A stretch of DNA of 64,000 bases from Chloroflexota bacterium (GTDB lineage: Bacteria; Chloroflexota; Dormibacteria; Dormibacterales; Dormibacteraceae). The translations under genes were made by a program, and so were the position numbers. The stretch is taken from positions 1 through 64,000 of the forward strand of contig VBEG01000023.1 of the NCBI GenBank assembly GCA_005882115.1, written 5' to 3'. Position 1 is the first letter of the stretch, and the number at the start of each line of letters is the position of its first letter. Below the pieces are notes generated by a model. It had not been told where the DNA came from. It made no database searches and worked only from the letters and a program-made list of their open reading frames with translations. Of this stretch, positions 17,957 to 48,970 are shown in pieces.

Positions 17957-18020
17957 CCGCGACTGCCGGCGGTCGCGGGCTTCTGGTGCGCGAATTGTCC
18001 GCGAGCGCCGGCGCTCGCGG
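17957..18020. repeat. Hairpin-pair (REP-like) repeat, left copy
   Basis: Two 22-base palindromes are separated by 20 bases. The first (17957-17978) is CCGCGACTGCCGGCGGTCGC plus GG, with one T-G wobble. The second (17999-18020) is a perfect palindrome with half-site CCGCGAGCGCC. The same two-hairpin layout with the same 20-base spacing recurs at 18967-19030, on the other side of the DUF559 gene. Confidence 0.85.
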
Positions 18021-18071
18021 ATTTCGGCCACGCCTTAACAGACAGCGTTGTCGTCCGAGCCGCAGCGCTGG

Positions 18072-19034
18072 ATGCTTGCTTCCATGGGGCGCAAGGCTCA
18101 CGTGCCGCCGAGATTGCAGCGCGGCCCTTTCACGGTGGACGAGGCCAGGCACGCGGGTCTCAACCGGTGGCATCTCGAGGGAGCGAGCTGGACGCGAATC
18201 GGGCCGTCGACCTACCTGTGGGCCGGTCTGAGCGGAGAGCCGATGCACCAACTCGTGGCCGCGAAGCGGCGGCTCCCCAGTGGGGCGGCATTCTCCGGCC
18301 TTACGGCGGCATGGCTGCATGGGATCGACGTCGTTCCCTGCAACCCCATCGAAGCGACGGTTTGTGAAGACGCGGGGGTGTCGGCCCGCGCCGGCATCGC
18401 GGTCCGCCGCTCTGCACTGAGCAAGGCTGATGTCGTCCAGGTTCGAGGCATGCCTGCCACCTCCATCGTCCGCACCCTGGGTGAGGTTTGCGCCCGTCTC
18501 AGTCTTGTCGAGGCTGTGGTTATCGCCGACGCCGCCTTGCACGACCGCCGAGTCAAGCTCCATCAACTCGTCGCCTGGGCCGGCGCGAATGCCGGCCGCC
18601 GAGGGGCCCGAAATCTGCGCCGTGTCCTCGCTCTCGTCGAGCCCGCCACGGAGTCCCCGATGGAGACGCGACTGCGCATGGTCCTCGTCCTTGGCGGACT
18701 GCCTCGGCCAAAGGCACAGGTGTCGATCCATGACCGTTGGCGTCGGTTCGTAGGCCGCCCTGATCTCTATTACGAGCAACACCGGCTGGGCATCGAATAC
18801 GACGGACGCTTTCACCGAGATGCCCTCGCGGAGGACAACCGGCGCCAGAACAGGTTGCTCAATGCCGGCGTCCGTCTGCTTCGCTTCACCGGCGCGGATG
18901 TTCTCGGAAACCCCGATTCGGTAGTAAGTCAAGTCCGAGCGATGCTGGCTGAGCCGCACGTCAATTCAGCGAGTGCCGGCGCTCGCGGGATTCCCGACGA
19001 CCAATTCCCCGCGACCGCCGGCGGTCGCGGATAA
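18072..19034 (+). CDS. DUF559/Vsr-like endonuclease-domain protein with N-terminal AbiEi-like region
   Basis: 320 aa from ATG 18072; ATG 18084 and an upstream TTG at 18048 are alternatives. The N-terminal part (about 15-170) resembles the AbiEi-type antitoxin fold common in actinobacteria (FTVDEARHAGL, WTRIGPSTYLWAG, SGLTAAWLHG). The C-terminal part is a PD-(D/E)XK-like DUF559 domain with FVGRPDLYYEQHRLGIEYDG and RQNRLLNAGVRLLRFT. The last ~22 residues are encoded by the right-hand repeat, so the repeat supplies the C-terminus. The nuclease function is inferred from fold resemblance. Confidence 0.82.
   Translation: MLASMGRKAHVPPRLQRGPFTVDEARHAGLNRWHLEGASWTRIGPSTYLWAGLSGEPMHQLVAAKRRLPSGAAFSGLTAAWLHGIDVVPCNPIEATVCEDAGVSARAGIAVRRSALSKADVVQVRGMPATSIVRTLGEVCARLSLVEAVVIADAALHDRRVKLHQLVAWAGANAGRRGARNLRRVLALVEPATESPMETRLRMVLVLGGLPRPKAQVSIHDRWRRFVGRPDLYYEQHRLGIEYDGRFHRDALAEDNRRQNRLLNAGVRLLRFTGADVLGNPDSVVSQVRAMLAEPHVNSASAGARGIPDDQFPATAGGRG
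18967..19030. repeat. Hairpin-pair (REP-like) repeat, right copy
   Basis: This copy has the same architecture as 17957-18020: an imperfect hairpin GCGAGTGCCGGCGCTCGC, 20 bases, then a perfect palindrome (19009-19030, half-site CCGCGACCGCC). The GAC and GAG hairpin types appear in swapped order relative to the left copy. It overlaps the end of the DUF559 gene and lies just before the convergent dehydrogenase stop. Confidence 0.85.
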
Positions 19035-24632: not shown

Positions 24633-24804
24633 CGTAGTATCCGTCGTCCCCGTCTAAAACTGCGTCAAAGCCCACATTTTGTGTTGAGCGGGGCGCCAGC
24701 TACAGCCGATAGACGCCGAAGATGCCGTTGTCCCCTAGTTGTCCCCAGGTCTGTTAAAAACCGCCAGCGAAACGCCGACGAGAGAAGCCTTCCGAGGCGG
24801 CGCA
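24633..24804. other. Intergenic region upstream of the tandem array
   Basis: These 172 bases separate the divergent ThyX-like and methyltransferase genes (24633-24976 in all). No gene is seen. Short AT-rich patches (ACATTTTGTGTTGAG near 24673, CTGTTAAAAACC near 24750) could hold promoters for either side but no clear -35/-10 pair with good spacing was found. Confidence 0.4.
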
Positions 24805-24963
24805 CGCCCCTCTCCTTGCCCTCCCCACTCCGTGGGGAGGGGCCTGGTGCTGGTACTACGCCCCTGCCTTGCCCTCCCCATTCGTGGGGAGGGGCCTGGA
24901 GCCGGCACTACGCCCCTCCCTTGCCCTCCCCACTTCGTGGGGAGGGACCTGGAGCCGGCACTA
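24805..24963. repeat. Three tandem ~53-base units, each with a CCTCCCC/GGGGAGG hairpin
   Basis: Units at 24805-24858, 24859-24910 and 24911-24963 each begin CGCCCCT and contain CCCTCCCCA(n)TGGGGAGGG, then CCTGG(A/T)GC(C/T)GG(C/T)ACTA. The three loops differ (ACTCCGT, ATTCGT, ACTTCGT) while the arms are conserved. The array ends 13 bases before the methyltransferase ATG, so it would lie in that gene's leader or promoter. Confidence 0.85.
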
Positions 24964-43504: not shown

Positions 43505-44386
43505 ATGGCGCCCCTGACTCTGGCCCAAGCGCTGTTCATGGGCCTGCTCCAGGGCGCCAGCGAGCTCTTCCCCGTCTCATCACTCGGTCACGCGGTCATC
43601 GTGCCCAGCCTCCTGCACTGGAGCTTCAAGCAGTCCGACCCTTCGTTCGTGCCTTTCCTCGTGCTGCTCCACCTTGGCACCGCGACGGCTCTCCTCGTCC
43701 TTTATCGCAGTGAATGGGTGGCCATCATCCGCGGGTTCTTCACAGCAGCGATCCGCGGCCAGATGAAGACCGACACCGAGCGTCTCGCGATGCTGCTCCT
43801 TGTCGGCACCATCCCCGCGGCGGTCCTCGGCGTGTTTCTCGAAAGCCGCATCAAGTCGCTGTTCGCGAGCCCCTACGTGGCCGCCGGATTCCTGGTCGCC
43901 AACGGATTCCTGATGCTTGGATTCGAGATCCTCCGCCGTCGCGCGGAGGGCCGCGCCACGCTCGCCAGCGAGTCGCGCCGTGAGCAGGAAGCGCACTTCG
44001 GGAGCGCCGAGCAAATCAGCTTTCTCGCCGCGGCTATCGTCGGCGCCTGCCAGGCGTTTGCGTTCCTGCCCGGCATCTCGCGCTCTGGCGTCACCATCGG
44101 CGGCGGCTTGCTGGCGGGGCTGCGCCACGAAGAAGCGGCGCGGTTCTCCTTCCTTCTGGCCACGCCCGTCATCCTCGGCGCCGGCCTGGTCGAGATGCCG
44201 GGTTTGTTTCAGGGCGGTGTCCCGGTCGGCGAGTACCTCGCGGCCGCTGTTCTGGCCGGCATCGCGGCCTACGCCAGCGCCCGCTTCCTACTTCGCTACT
44301 TTCGCTCCGGGCGCCTTGATCCGTACGGCTGGTACTGCATCACCGCGGGGCTCGCCAGCCTGGCTTTGTTACATTTCAGCCTGTGA
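43505..44386 (+). CDS. uppP: Undecaprenyl-diphosphatase UppP (BacA)
   Basis: 293 aa. Motifs are the N-terminal LLQGASELFPVSSLGHAVIVP (E/P-SSxGH catalytic region) and FLPGISRSGVTIGGGLLAG (PGxSRSG). Eight hydrophobic segments are visible. It dephosphorylates undecaprenyl diphosphate to recycle the lipid carrier in peptidoglycan synthesis. The ATG at 43505 is preferred over the longer frame that starts at 43472. The stop overlaps the following small membrane gene (GTGA). Confidence 0.95.
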   Translation: MAPLTLAQALFMGLLQGASELFPVSSLGHAVIVPSLLHWSFKQSDPSFVPFLVLLHLGTATALLVLYRSEWVAIIRGFFTAAIRGQMKTDTERLAMLLLVGTIPAAVLGVFLESRIKSLFASPYVAAGFLVANGFLMLGFEILRRRAEGRATLASESRREQEAHFGSAEQISFLAAAIVGACQAFAFLPGISRSGVTIGGGLLAGLRHEEAARFSFLLATPVILGAGLVEMPGLFQGGVPVGEYLAAAVLAGIAAYASARFLLRYFRSGRLDPYGWYCITAGLASLALLHFSL

Positions 44387-44589
44387 CGAGGTCCAGCCCG
44401 CTGGCTGTCGCGTTGGGTGTGCTCGGGGTCGTCTTCATCGTCGTTGCCGCGCTGTACGCGGTCGGGGCGCTGCAGATCGCCACCTCATCCGCAACGGGGC
44501 CCCACTACAAGCACGCGATCCTGTTTGCGGTGCTTGCGGTGGCGAGCTTCGTCGGTGCCAACTTCGCCCGCCCGAAGACCGCCACCTAA
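44383..44589 (+). CDS. Small membrane protein coupled to uppP
   Basis: 68 aa from a GTG sharing bases with the uppP TGA. Two hydrophobic helices (about 7-29 and 43-62) are separated by a short polar loop (SSATGPHYKH). Function unknown. It is convergent with the flavin oxidoreductase gene. Confidence 0.65.
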   Translation: MTRSSPLAVALGVLGVVFIVVAALYAVGALQIATSSATGPHYKHAILFAVLAVASFVGANFARPKTAT

Positions 44590-44592
44590 GCC

Positions 44593-46104
44593 CTAAGCCT
44601 TAGCCGGCACGCGCTCCGGAACCTGACGGCCGGTGACATCGCGCTCACCGACCCGGATGTTCTCGTGGTATACGGCGTCCGCGTTGACCTTCCAAGGGTC
44701 CAGCAGCGAGCCGGTCGCGATCTGTCGCGCCACGAGGAGCGCGGTCATCATCGAGTGGTCCTGGTTGTTGTACTTGTGCATGCCGTTGCGGCCGGCCAGG
44801 TGGAGATTGGGCAGCTCCTGCGCGAGATAGTCACGGACGACGGCGACGTTGGCCTGGTAGTTGTCGTCGTACACGGGGTATGCCTTCTGCTGCCGCACCA
44901 CGACGCCGTCAAACACATTGGCCGGTGAGCAGATGCCCAGCTGTCCCAGCTCGTTCTTCGCCAGCTCGATCAGGTCGTTGTCTTGCATCGTCCACAGCCC
45001 ATCGCCTTCGAAGCAGAAGTACTCGAGGCCGAGGCAAGTCTTGGCCTGGTCCGGCACCATGTCCGGGCTCCAGTTCTTGAAGTTCTGGATCCGGCCGACA
45101 CGCACGCCCGGATCGTGGATGTAGATCCAGTTGTCAGGAAACACATGCGGGCGGTCGATCATCAACGCGATGCTGATGAAGTCCCTGTAGCCCAGCCTGT
45201 TCGCGGCGCCGCGGACCTTTTCGGGTGCCGGGGGATCGAGCTTCGCGACCAGCTCGCGGATGGGGATGCTCGAGATGAAGTCGGTGCCGGCATGCGTGCG
45301 TATGCGGCCATCAGCGTCGGTCGTCACGACTTCCGTCACCGCCCCGTCTGCATGGTTGACGCTCGCCACCGATTGTCCGAGGACAACCGGATGTCCTTTG
45401 GAAGCGCTGATCTCCGCGACGCGTTCCCATACCTGGCCCGGACCCAGGCGCGGATAGCGGAACTTGTCGATCAGCGTGGTCACGATCTCGCCCCGCTTGC
45501 GCGGCCGGCGGCGCGGCAGAAGCGCGCTCCGGATCACGACCCACAGGTCCAAGCTCTTGATCCGCTGCGCCGCCCAATCGGCCGATAGCTCCCTGGTGCT
45601 GATCCCCCACACCTTCTCGGTGTAGGTCTTGAAGAAGATGTTGAAGAGCCTCCAACCGAACTGGTTGCGTACCCATTGCTCGAGTGTTTTCGGGTTCTTG
45701 ATCGGTCGCAGCCGCGCGTGCGCGTAGCTGGCCAGGCACCACGTGGCCTCGAGGGGGCCGAGGTTCCACAGAGCGTTGACGGCCTGGATCGGATAGGCGA
45801 AGAAGCGGCCCCGGTAGTAGATGCGCGAGAGCCGGCCTCGGTTCAGCATCTCGGGGCCGAGGATCTCAGTCCACAGCGCCTCGACCTCGTCGTTCTTGGA
45901 GAAGAACCTGTGGCCGCCGATGTCGAACCGATAGCCGTTGTGCTCGACCGTCCTGGCGAGGCCGCCCACCTGCTTCGAGTCCTTCTCGACCACCGTGACG
46001 GGGACGTCACGCTTCAGCAGCTCGTAGGCGGCGGTAAGGCCCGCCGGCCCCGCGCCCATGATGACGACATGCCTGCGTTCGCCTTCGGCGATCAAGGTTG
46101 CCAC
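44593..46104 (-). CDS. NAD(P)/FAD-dependent amine-oxidase-like (UDP-galactopyranose mutase/desaturase-type) oxidoreductase
   Basis: 503 aa. An N-terminal Rossmann motif VVIMGAGPAGLTAAYEL, then VVEKDSKQVGGLARTVEHNGYRF and the extended FDIGGHRFFSKND segment are shared by UDP-galactopyranose mutase-like and protoporphyrinogen-oxidase-like flavoproteins. The C-terminal GRNGMHKYNNQDHSMMTALL closes the FAD site. UDP-sugar, carotenoid or lipid substrates are all possible, so the role is not assigned. Confidence 0.85.
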   Translation of the reverse strand: MATLIAEGERRHVVIMGAGPAGLTAAYELLKRDVPVTVVEKDSKQVGGLARTVEHNGYRFDIGGHRFFSKNDEVEALWTEILGPEMLNRGRLSRIYYRGRFFAYPIQAVNALWNLGPLEATWCLASYAHARLRPIKNPKTLEQWVRNQFGWRLFNIFFKTYTEKVWGISTRELSADWAAQRIKSLDLWVVIRSALLPRRRPRKRGEIVTTLIDKFRYPRLGPGQVWERVAEISASKGHPVVLGQSVASVNHADGAVTEVVTTDADGRIRTHAGTDFISSIPIRELVAKLDPPAPEKVRGAANRLGYRDFISIALMIDRPHVFPDNWIYIHDPGVRVGRIQNFKNWSPDMVPDQAKTCLGLEYFCFEGDGLWTMQDNDLIELAKNELGQLGICSPANVFDGVVVRQQKAYPVYDDNYQANVAVVRDYLAQELPNLHLAGRNGMHKYNNQDHSMMTALLVARQIATGSLLDPWKVNADAVYHENIRVGERDVTGRQVPERVPAKA

Positions 46105-47121: not shown

Positions 47122-47610
47122 TTAAGAGCTCGACAGGAACCAAACAGGATCGACGGGCACACGGTCGACGTCGACCTGCAGATGGACGTGCGGGCCGGTC
47201 GCGAGGCCAGTGGCGCCGACCAGTCCGATCAGCTGCCCCGGCGCCACCAGATCTCCGGATGCCACACGAAACGCGGAGAGGTGGCCGTACAGGACCCAGG
47301 TGTGGGCGTCGACCACGACCTTGACGTAATCACCCGCACCGTCAGCGTCATAGTCCGCGATCACTCGGCCCGCGGTCGCGGAGTAGACCGGCGACCCAAG
47401 TGGCGCCGCCAGGTCGATGCCGGTGTGGATGTGGTGGGTCGGGCAGTCCCGGTCGAAGGGTTCGAGCAGCAGGCTCGTGCAGCCGAACGGCTGGGTGACC
47501 TTCCCATCGAGGACCACCGCCGAGACCGGAAGCCGGAGATGGCTCGGCGCCTGGGTCGCGGCGACTAGCATCAGCACCACGCCGCTGGCGACCATCGCAA
47601 GTAGCCGCAT
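47122..47610 (-). CDS. M23 family peptidase (LytM-like), exported
   Basis: 162 aa. A signal-type helix (about 4-19) leads to the LytM domain: His62 and Asp66 in HIHTGIDLAAP and the HxH (His141, His143) in GPHVHLQV, the zinc ligands of M23. It would cut peptidoglycan crosslinks. It overlaps the stop of the VirB6-like gene (ATGA), placing it last in an operon with VirB6- and VirB2-like genes and so suggesting local wall opening for a secretion machine. Confidence 0.9.
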   Translation of the reverse strand: MRLLAMVASGVVLMLVAATQAPSHLRLPVSAVVLDGKVTQPFGCTSLLLEPFDRDCPTHHIHTGIDLAAPLGSPVYSATAGRVIADYDADGAGDYVKVVVDAHTWVLYGHLSAFRVASGDLVAPGQLIGLVGATGLATGPHVHLQVDVDRVPVDPVWFLSSS

Positions 47611-48500
47611 CACGCCTTCACCAGTGCGTGCCCGATCTGCTTGAAGGCGGTGAAGACAGTCGATTCGAGCTTGTGCGCCGCCTTCTCGGCGCCACCGATC
47701 GCGCCTGGAATCTTGAAGACGATCAAGAGCGAGGCCAGGGCGAAGAGGTGGTGGACCGGCGTGAAGCCGTCGTGCTCGAGGGCGAGCCCGACCGACAGCA
47801 CGAAGAGCTGCATCGGCTGCATGAAGAGGTTGGTCGTGAAGTGCGAGCTCCACGCCTTGGCGAGATGCTGGGTCTCGGGCAGCATAAGCAGGAGTCCGGC
47901 AAGCGGGGCGGTGACCGCCAGCACGACCAACACCGCGTAGCGAACGAGGTAGGCGATCGCGAGGACTCCGTAGCCGCCGGCCAGGGCGCCGGTCGTGATG
48001 ATCTCCCACGTGCCCGCGTTCGGGTTGTGGTTGTAGCTGGCCGCAAAAGTTGCCAGGTCGTCATGCGTGCTGAACGTCTGCACGGCGGTGCAGATCGCGT
48101 TGCTCGCCGTGACCGCCATCTGAAACAGCGGCATCGCGAAGTTGATGAGAACGGCGGCCATCAACAGCCGCGGTAGGAGGATGCGCGCGCTGTATTGGGT
48201 CGAGACGCCGTGGCCCCACATGATTCGGTACGACGCCCACAGCGCGACGAGCACCATCGCGGCGTTGGCGACCAGCTGCAGTTTGGGTTCGAAGCGCTGG
48301 ATCGTCGAGTTGGTGATGAAATCGCCGCCGCTCTCGAAATCGGTCGTGCTGAGGATGAACTTGAACCAGACGTTGAGCAGCAGACCGACGCTGTCCTCGA
48401 GCAGGTGGGCGAGGATCAGGTTCGGGTGGACGAGCGTGTACAGGTAGCCTTCGATGCGGCCAAGTTCGTCATAGAGCGCCTTCAGAAACGAGAGGTCCAC
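47610..48500 (-). CDS. VirB6/TrbL-like polytopic membrane protein
   Basis: 296 aa from a GTG. Five to six hydrophobic helices (about 77-95, 106-130, 168-190, 190-212 and 245-268). The combination of N-terminal hydrophilic region, central multi-helix core and the GVLAIAYLVRYAVLVVLAVTAP motif fits VirB6/TrbL inner-membrane components of type IV secretion. The assignment rests on topology and on the neighbouring pilin-like and M23 genes; sequence similarity in this family is low. Confidence 0.65.
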   Translation of the reverse strand: MDLSFLKALYDELGRIEGYLYTLVHPNLILAHLLEDSVGLLLNVWFKFILSTTDFESGGDFITNSTIQRFEPKLQLVANAAMVLVALWASYRIMWGHGVSTQYSARILLPRLLMAAVLINFAMPLFQMAVTASNAICTAVQTFSTHDDLATFAASYNHNPNAGTWEIITTGALAGGYGVLAIAYLVRYAVLVVLAVTAPLAGLLLMLPETQHLAKAWSSHFTTNLFMQPMQLFVLSVGLALEHDGFTPVHHLFALASLLIVFKIPGAIGGAEKAAHKLESTVFTAFKQIGHALVKA

Positions 48501-48764: not shown

Positions 48765-48905
48765 GTACGCCTCCAGTCTTTTGACGGCACGCTACTTGCA
48801 GTCGAGGCGTCTGAAAACTCAGGCTGTTAACGCTCCCGCAGGATTCGGTGCACCCGGACGCGCCGAAGATCGGGGCGTTCGAAAACGCGGTCGGCTGAAC
48901 CCCGG

Positions 48906-48961
48906 ATAGTCCGGACTGTCCGAGGCTTGATTCGGACTTCAGCTCGGTTTGTCCGGACTAT
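48906..48961. promoter_or_regulatory. Nested inverted repeat upstream of the pilin-like gene
   Basis: The outer arms ATAGTCCGGAC (48906-48916) and GTCCGGACTAT (48951-48961) are an 11-base perfect inverted repeat. The inner arms GTCCGA (48918-48923) and TCGGAC (48932-48937) form a second. Each outer arm contains the 8-base palindrome GTCCGGAC. The site lies in the 206-base gap between the pilin-like start and the Fic stop and could be an operator or a folded leader RNA. Confidence 0.7.
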
Positions 48962-48970
48962 CTGCCCGAC

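Follow-up and report, generated by a model that had tools for sequence, protein, structure and literature searches.

REPIN/RAYT systems are the textbook example of repeat populations that persist by vertical inheritance over long times under the care of a single domesticated enzyme. They are tied to HUH chemistry and consist of REP sequences together with TnpA-REP, a Y1 HUH transposase, the repeats forming looped hairpins with a GTAG/CGTC tetranucleotide tag at the foot. AbiEi, the antitoxin of type IV AbiE toxin-antitoxin systems, recognizes 23-bp inverted repeats, in twos, within its own promoter, and so does its relative Rv2827c (PMC7319586), while the Vsr-like proteins, which are proposed repair enzymes without end repeats, carry a DUF559 PD-(D/E)XK nuclease domain at the C-terminus with conserved catalytic residues, as in VsrA of Caulobacter (PMC12907096). 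The locus described here resembles each of these in part. It comprises a gene whose product fuses an AbiEi-like DNA-binding domain to a C-terminal DUF559 (Vsr-like PD-(D/E)XK) nuclease, with matching pairs of palindromes at both ends, and this unit is very likely mobile and cognate to the gene.

The window analysed is a stretch of 64,000 nucleotides from a Chloroflexota bacterium (contig VBEG01000023.1), the genome of which is in 147 contigs. The neighbors of the gene are an ABC-2 permease gene on its upstream side and, downstream, a convergent gene for a Glu/Leu/Phe/Val dehydrogenase (GluDH). The AbiEi-DUF559 gene is bracketed by two 64-nt elements (Table 1), each made of two 22-nt near-perfect palindromes (CCGCGAnnGCCGGCnnTCGCGG) with a spacer of 20 nt, such that the palindromes are 42 nt apart from center to center. 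The palindromes of both pairs lack a loop, and a role as binding sites in double-stranded form is therefore as likely as hairpin formation. The two elements have the same orientation, judged by a weak similarity of their spacers, with each palindrome also reading inverted. The original prediction, made from sequence alone, that two 64-base palindrome pairs lie at both ends of a DUF559 gene held and proved general in the gene family, and its claim that the second repeat supplies the last ~22 codons held for the window gene. A functional role for this repeat-coded C-terminal tail was considered and rejected, the tail being incidental, since the reading frame of many other copies ends ahead of the downstream pair. 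The conserved block directly inside the upstream pair was detected with a script in 54 of 62 near-full copies and by eye in one more (L096), and is inferred to be either a promoter element or a subterminal recognition site. The window contains no known RNA or riboswitch with a match in Rfam. The closest named relative by the window gene is a Chloroflexi soil MAG (VBHA01000075.1) with the same gene, 79% identical, at the same locus, where it carries two near-identical palindrome pairs.

Table 1. Features of the palindrome-bracketed gene and of a related geneless pair, in window coordinates
Feature	Position	Strand	Remarks
Upstream palindrome pair, 64 nt	17957..18020	+	Palindromes 17957-17978 and 17999-18020; cognate with downstream pair
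Conserved block CTTAAC(A/G)GGCnnGGTTG	18034..18050	+	Directly inside upstream pair; ends at TTG start
AbiEi-DUF559 protein gene, 328 aa	18048..19034	+	TTG start; alternative ATG at 18084
AbiEi-like N-terminal domain	18117..18638	+	PADLOC AbiEi and Pfam AbiEi_1 matches; proposed binder of pairs
DUF559/Vsr-like PD-(D/E)XK nuclease core	18762..18947	+	Pfam, PDB 3hrl, invariant residues
Downstream palindrome pair, 64 nt	18967..19030	+	Palindromes 18967-18988 and 19009-19030; codes last ~22 codons
Solo palindrome pair of the genome's second family, geneless	48902..48965	+	CCGGATAGTCCGGACTATCCGG type, also written TAGTCCGGAC type

The two halves of the protein were identified across the family, with PADLOC AbiEi models matching the N-terminal half in all 28 aligned copies (best E 1.7e-18), Pfam AbiEi_1 matching 14 of the 28, and a C-terminal DUF559 match present in every one. 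In the window protein the DUF559 domain is recognized by Pfam at E = 9e-8, the closest solved structure for this half being PDB 3hrl (E 2.7e-6). Six residues, E190, D227, E238, D240, H244 and Q255, which we take to be the catalytic set from knowledge of the Vsr/DUF559 fold, are invariant in 28 copies that are only 40-80% identical to the window protein. Orthologous copies have dN/dS values of 0.14-0.28 (0.2 for the orthologue of the window gene), and the protein is under purifying selection with many copies vertically inherited, as RAYT genes are. An AlphaFold model built from a two-sequence alignment was too poor for use (pLDDT 40). Since AbiEi and Rv2827c bind paired 23-bp inverted repeats (PMC7319586), the AbiEi-like half is the natural reader of the pairs, and it is likely, by inference and without binding data, that it binds them. 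That the DUF559 nuclease mobilizes the element is likewise inferred, with no data on cutting or movement, and is favored here only by a modest margin.

A search of 61 relatives revealed that the gene forms a multicopy family with many full-length copies and as many as 16 matches in a genome, some of them interrupted by stops, and with many paralogues and pseudogenes per genome; the frame is open in 55 of 62 near-full copies. The family is confined to one bacterial family, with 17 of 400 genomes of the phylum matching at E < 1e-25 and the sole match outside it residing on a contig that is almost the same as one from G011 and is thus likely to be contamination. Contigs sharing 97-99% identity between genomes of different class or genus were observed (G057:C251 and G011:C244; L087/L090; L091/L093), suggesting either binning contamination or very recent transfer. 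No match was found in the phage records searched. An actinomycete plasmid homologue (Tsukamurella, 33% identity) has no pair at its DUF559 gene, the weak matches of the scan falling in a neighboring gene.

The flanks of 69 copies were checked for palindrome pairs with no sequence assumed beforehand. The best pair had a spacing of 41-43 nt in 39 of 59 upstream and 32 of 58 downstream flanks, while shuffled DNA had no favored spacing. With a stricter score a pair at 41-43 nt remained in 36/56 upstream and 30/56 downstream flanks, compared with 0/1,320 shuffled flanks and 0/264 other segments of the window. Likewise, when 332 kb from two relatives were scanned de novo, similar pairs were detected seven times at a spacing of 42, once at 43 and at no other spacing from 30 to 60. 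The spacing scan with its shuffled and background controls shows that the pairs bracketing the gene are not due to chance. About one third of the AbiEi-DUF559 flanks have no detectable pair, and the end pairs are direct in some subfamilies and inverted in others. An orientation preference for convergent neighbors was considered and dropped, the automatic ORF call being unreliable in GC-rich DNA. Arrays of at least three palindromes in the 42-nt register were also observed (downstream flank of L036; G012:C16:3235-3330; G012:C309:3406-3501; G006:C381:18180-18275), and pairs can therefore extend to arrays by steps of 42 nt. At one further locus (L081, G011:C172:5579-7762) two complete, different AbiEi-DUF559 genes adjoin where other species have a single copy.

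The sequence of the palindromes is wholly different between subfamilies (for example CCGCGAgtGCCGGCacTCGCGG, GCGGTTTTGGATCCAAAACCGC, CCGGATAGTCCGGACTATCCGG, CCCCATCCGCCGGCGGATGGGG and GGCGTTGCGCCGGCGCAACGCC), whereas the palindromes at the two ends of one element match at 19.2/22 positions, the value between elements being 11.2/22 (permutation p < 1e-4). Similarity of the palindromes tracks that of the proteins (Mantel r = 0.77, p = 2e-4), showing that the two have diverged in parallel into many subfamilies. The spacers are much less conserved than the palindromes. In G009 the two pairs are identical at 62/64 positions, spacer included, while the orthologous pairs of G000 and G009 match at only 52/64, indicating that pairs within an element are homogenized, that is, copied onto one another. 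The genome of the window has a second complete element (contig C119, ~44080-45150) with the TAGTCCGGACTA type at both ends, which is the cognate of the window's solo pair; this solo pair adjoins a remnant of the sequence that flanks full elements of the second family elsewhere. As a separate observation, the palindrome core of the window element, YGCCGGCR, is the methylation motif of Caulobacter ScmA, the loss of which is toxic through the DUF559 protein VsrA (PMC12907096). This match may be a coincidence, other subfamilies having other cores.

Pairs without a gene outnumber the genes. Matches of the TAGTCCGGAC type number 19 in the genome of the window, 43 in G008 and 32 in G012 (none with a reversed-pattern control), and the type is almost confined to the window's genus. 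For the CCGCGA type there are 7 matches in the genome of the window, 13 in G006 and 20 in G014. Such dispersal recalls REPIN/RAYT systems, in which short paired units also occur without the gene, the gene is largely vertical and conserved, and the repeats are mostly intergenic. The first alternative to a self-mobilized unit is a composite or hitchhiking origin, in which another enzyme moves the pairs in trans and the AbiEi-DUF559 gene is cargo caught between two of them. The excess of solo pairs over genes and their lack of target duplications are in keeping with this, and the 64-nt pair may be the real moving unit. Against it, each gene subfamily has its own palindrome type, which would be needless for cargo, and the usual mover of such repeats is missing: 41 of the 42 family genomes, the window's own among them, lack the Y1 HUH transposase (PF01797), for which control genomes gave matches. 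Hitchhiking is thus unlikely, and RAYT/IS200 was rejected as the mover on account of this absence. The one family genome with Y1_Tnp has none of the three pair types searched.

Comparison of loci between relatives provides evidence of mobility. The permease/GluDH site of the window is empty in relatives, with 3 nt between the genes in G015 and 8 nt in G019, and in G007 and G014 it holds solo pairs of other types, that in G007 being of the same type as one of the DUF559 elements of that genome. Searches with flanking DNA revealed that an element of G007 is missing in G008, with flanks 92% identical, and an element of G005 is missing in G009, G002, G016 and G035, while G014 has a TAGTCGCGACTA-type solo pair at that site. 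Similarly, at a site that bears an element in G011 and G017, G013 contains a solo pair of a different type, the flanks being 91-96% identical. A further pair type (ATTTTCCGGAAAAT, ~41 nt apart) was observed in G009 (L313, contig C103) where G011 and G017 have the full element. These loci bear on a second alternative, in which the gene is an autoregulated resident, the pairs are operators of an AbiEi-type regulator or nuclease, the solo pairs are its regulon and nothing moves. The binding of paired inverted repeats by AbiEi proteins in their own promoters, and a gene that is under purifying selection and partly vertical, would be consistent with this. However, it is contradicted by the empty sites and by an insertion with a target duplication (below), by pairs at the 3′ end, by the many paralogues and pseudogenes per genome and by sister species having pairs of different types at one site, and is very unlikely. 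Because of the empty sites autoregulation fails as a complete account, although operator binding may still belong to the mechanism.

The insertion of pair, gene and pair as one unit is shown by one clean case. In G025 (contig C106) an entire unit of ~890 nt lies in the first codons of a dnaE gene, bordered by a perfect 14-nt target duplication, AACGGCTCAGTCAT, compared with at most 9 matching nt in a control with unrelated flanks, and G034 has the uninterrupted site with no pair in it. Neither the older copies nor any of the solo pairs tested had a target duplication above the control, and evidence for the duplication is therefore limited to this one recent event. A third alternative is homing, in which the nuclease cuts a solo pair and repair from a gene-bearing copy places the gene between two copies of the target. 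In its favor, the same pair stands on both sides of the gene, the two copies in G009 being nearly identical with the spacer included, and, as weak support, the G034 site matching a second G025 copy (contig C12) has a faint remnant like one pair. It is rendered unlikely by the clean recent insertion, which entered a pairless site and made the 14-nt duplication, and by the inverted end pairs of some subfamilies.

The preferred reading, held with slightly more confidence than doubt and with the catalysis of movement inferred, is that of an independently evolved REPIN/RAYT-like system mobilized by the AbiEi-DUF559 protein. The autonomous form would be the gene between two palindrome pairs, ~1.07 kb in length (0.89 kb in the shortest copy), with the solo 64-nt pair as the non-autonomous dispersed form. 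It is inferred that the AbiEi-like N-terminal domain would bind each 22-bp palindrome as a dimer, two palindromes 42 bp apart, about four helical turns and hence on the same face of the helix, forming one recognition unit, and that binding upstream would autoregulate the gene and draw both end pairs together. The DUF559 nuclease may then cut at the element ends and make a staggered cut in the target, the cutting again being inferred, with repair leaving the short target duplication shown in one copy. Solo pairs may arise by the same protein acting in trans or by recombination between two flanking pairs.

As in REPIN/RAYT, a family of single genes is flanked on both sides by palindromic repeats cognate to it, but the enzyme is an unrelated protein, and the palindromes are loopless, with no GTAG/CGTC tag noticed in them, and have a fixed 42-nt phasing and, in one insertion, a 14-nt target duplication. 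The original prediction proposed a REP/BIME-like system in which a PD-(D/E)XK protein replaces the tyrosine or HUH transposase, and this is supported, fitting both the absence of Y1 from 41/42 genomes and the covariation of the DUF559 protein with the palindromes, with the nuclease as mobilizer remaining unproven. The three kinds of evidence it had looked to, namely empty sites, other copies of the repeat and DUF559 genes flanked by the same pair elsewhere, were all found. It would have been refuted by repeats occurring widely without the gene together with the gene at the same locus in relatives without repeats; the former is met, solo repeats being common as expected of a non-autonomous derivative, while the latter was not seen, G009 having the gene and both pairs.

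The pairs upstream of the gene are in keeping with the mode of binding of AbiEi, to which the N-terminal domain is homologous. Unlike in AbiE systems, no separate AbiEii nucleotidyltransferase toxin was seen in the element, the insert in G025:C106 being one gene and the window neighbors a permease and GluDH genes; the nuclease domain is fused at the C-terminus, and the sites lie also downstream and at distant loci. Compared with other Vsr-like proteins, the gene has an AbiEi-like domain and matching terminal pairs. The element resembles MITEs and TIR insertion sequences in having short non-autonomous copies with the same ends as the autonomous copy and, in one case, a target duplication, but its ends are palindrome pairs, direct or inverted by subfamily, and it has no DDE transposase. 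Tn7 TnsA likewise employs a nuclease of the PD-(D/E)XK fold for transposition, but works with the DDE enzyme TnsB, while the element codes for no partner. Several points weigh against the preferred reading: end pairs that are direct or inverted by subfamily are atypical of transposon ends, known AbiEi operators have gaps of 3 or 13 bp where the gap here is 20 bp, only one copy has a target duplication and about one third of the flanks have no pair.

A bolder reading, which on present inference is only a little more likely to prove right than wrong, is that the element represents a new class of bacterial transposable element with the AbiEi-DUF559 (Vsr-like) nuclease as the sole mobilizing protein, recognizing loopless palindrome pairs phased at 42 bp and maintaining populations of solo pairs, a way of life reached independently of REPIN/RAYT. 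No earlier description was found in the open-access literature searched, subscription journals and preprints being outside it. The papers there that name DUF559 include none on mobility or palindromes, by title and abstract, and searches there on PD-(D/E)XK mobile elements and on Chloroflexi repeats returned nothing similar. If true, a second, unrelated enzyme would fill the role of RAYT, such that this way of life evolved more than once; a function would be assigned to part of DUF559, a very widespread family for which none is known, and the AbiEi DNA-binding fold would be linked to DNA mobility. The result would be a compact one-protein system in which a recognition code, protein subfamily against palindrome type, is readable from genomes.

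Two other regions of the window drew attention. Three tandem repeats of ~52 nt with a CCTCCCCA..TGGGGAGG hairpin lie at 24790-24960, and hairpins like them (CCTCCCCATAAATGGGGAGG) fill several 'empty' intergenic sites of relatives (L303, L304, L308, L311 and L312), indicating that another geneless dispersed palindrome family exists. At 47122-48500, overlapping frames that by eye resemble a VirB6/TrbL-type membrane protein and an M23 peptidase are possibly the remains of a conjugative element.
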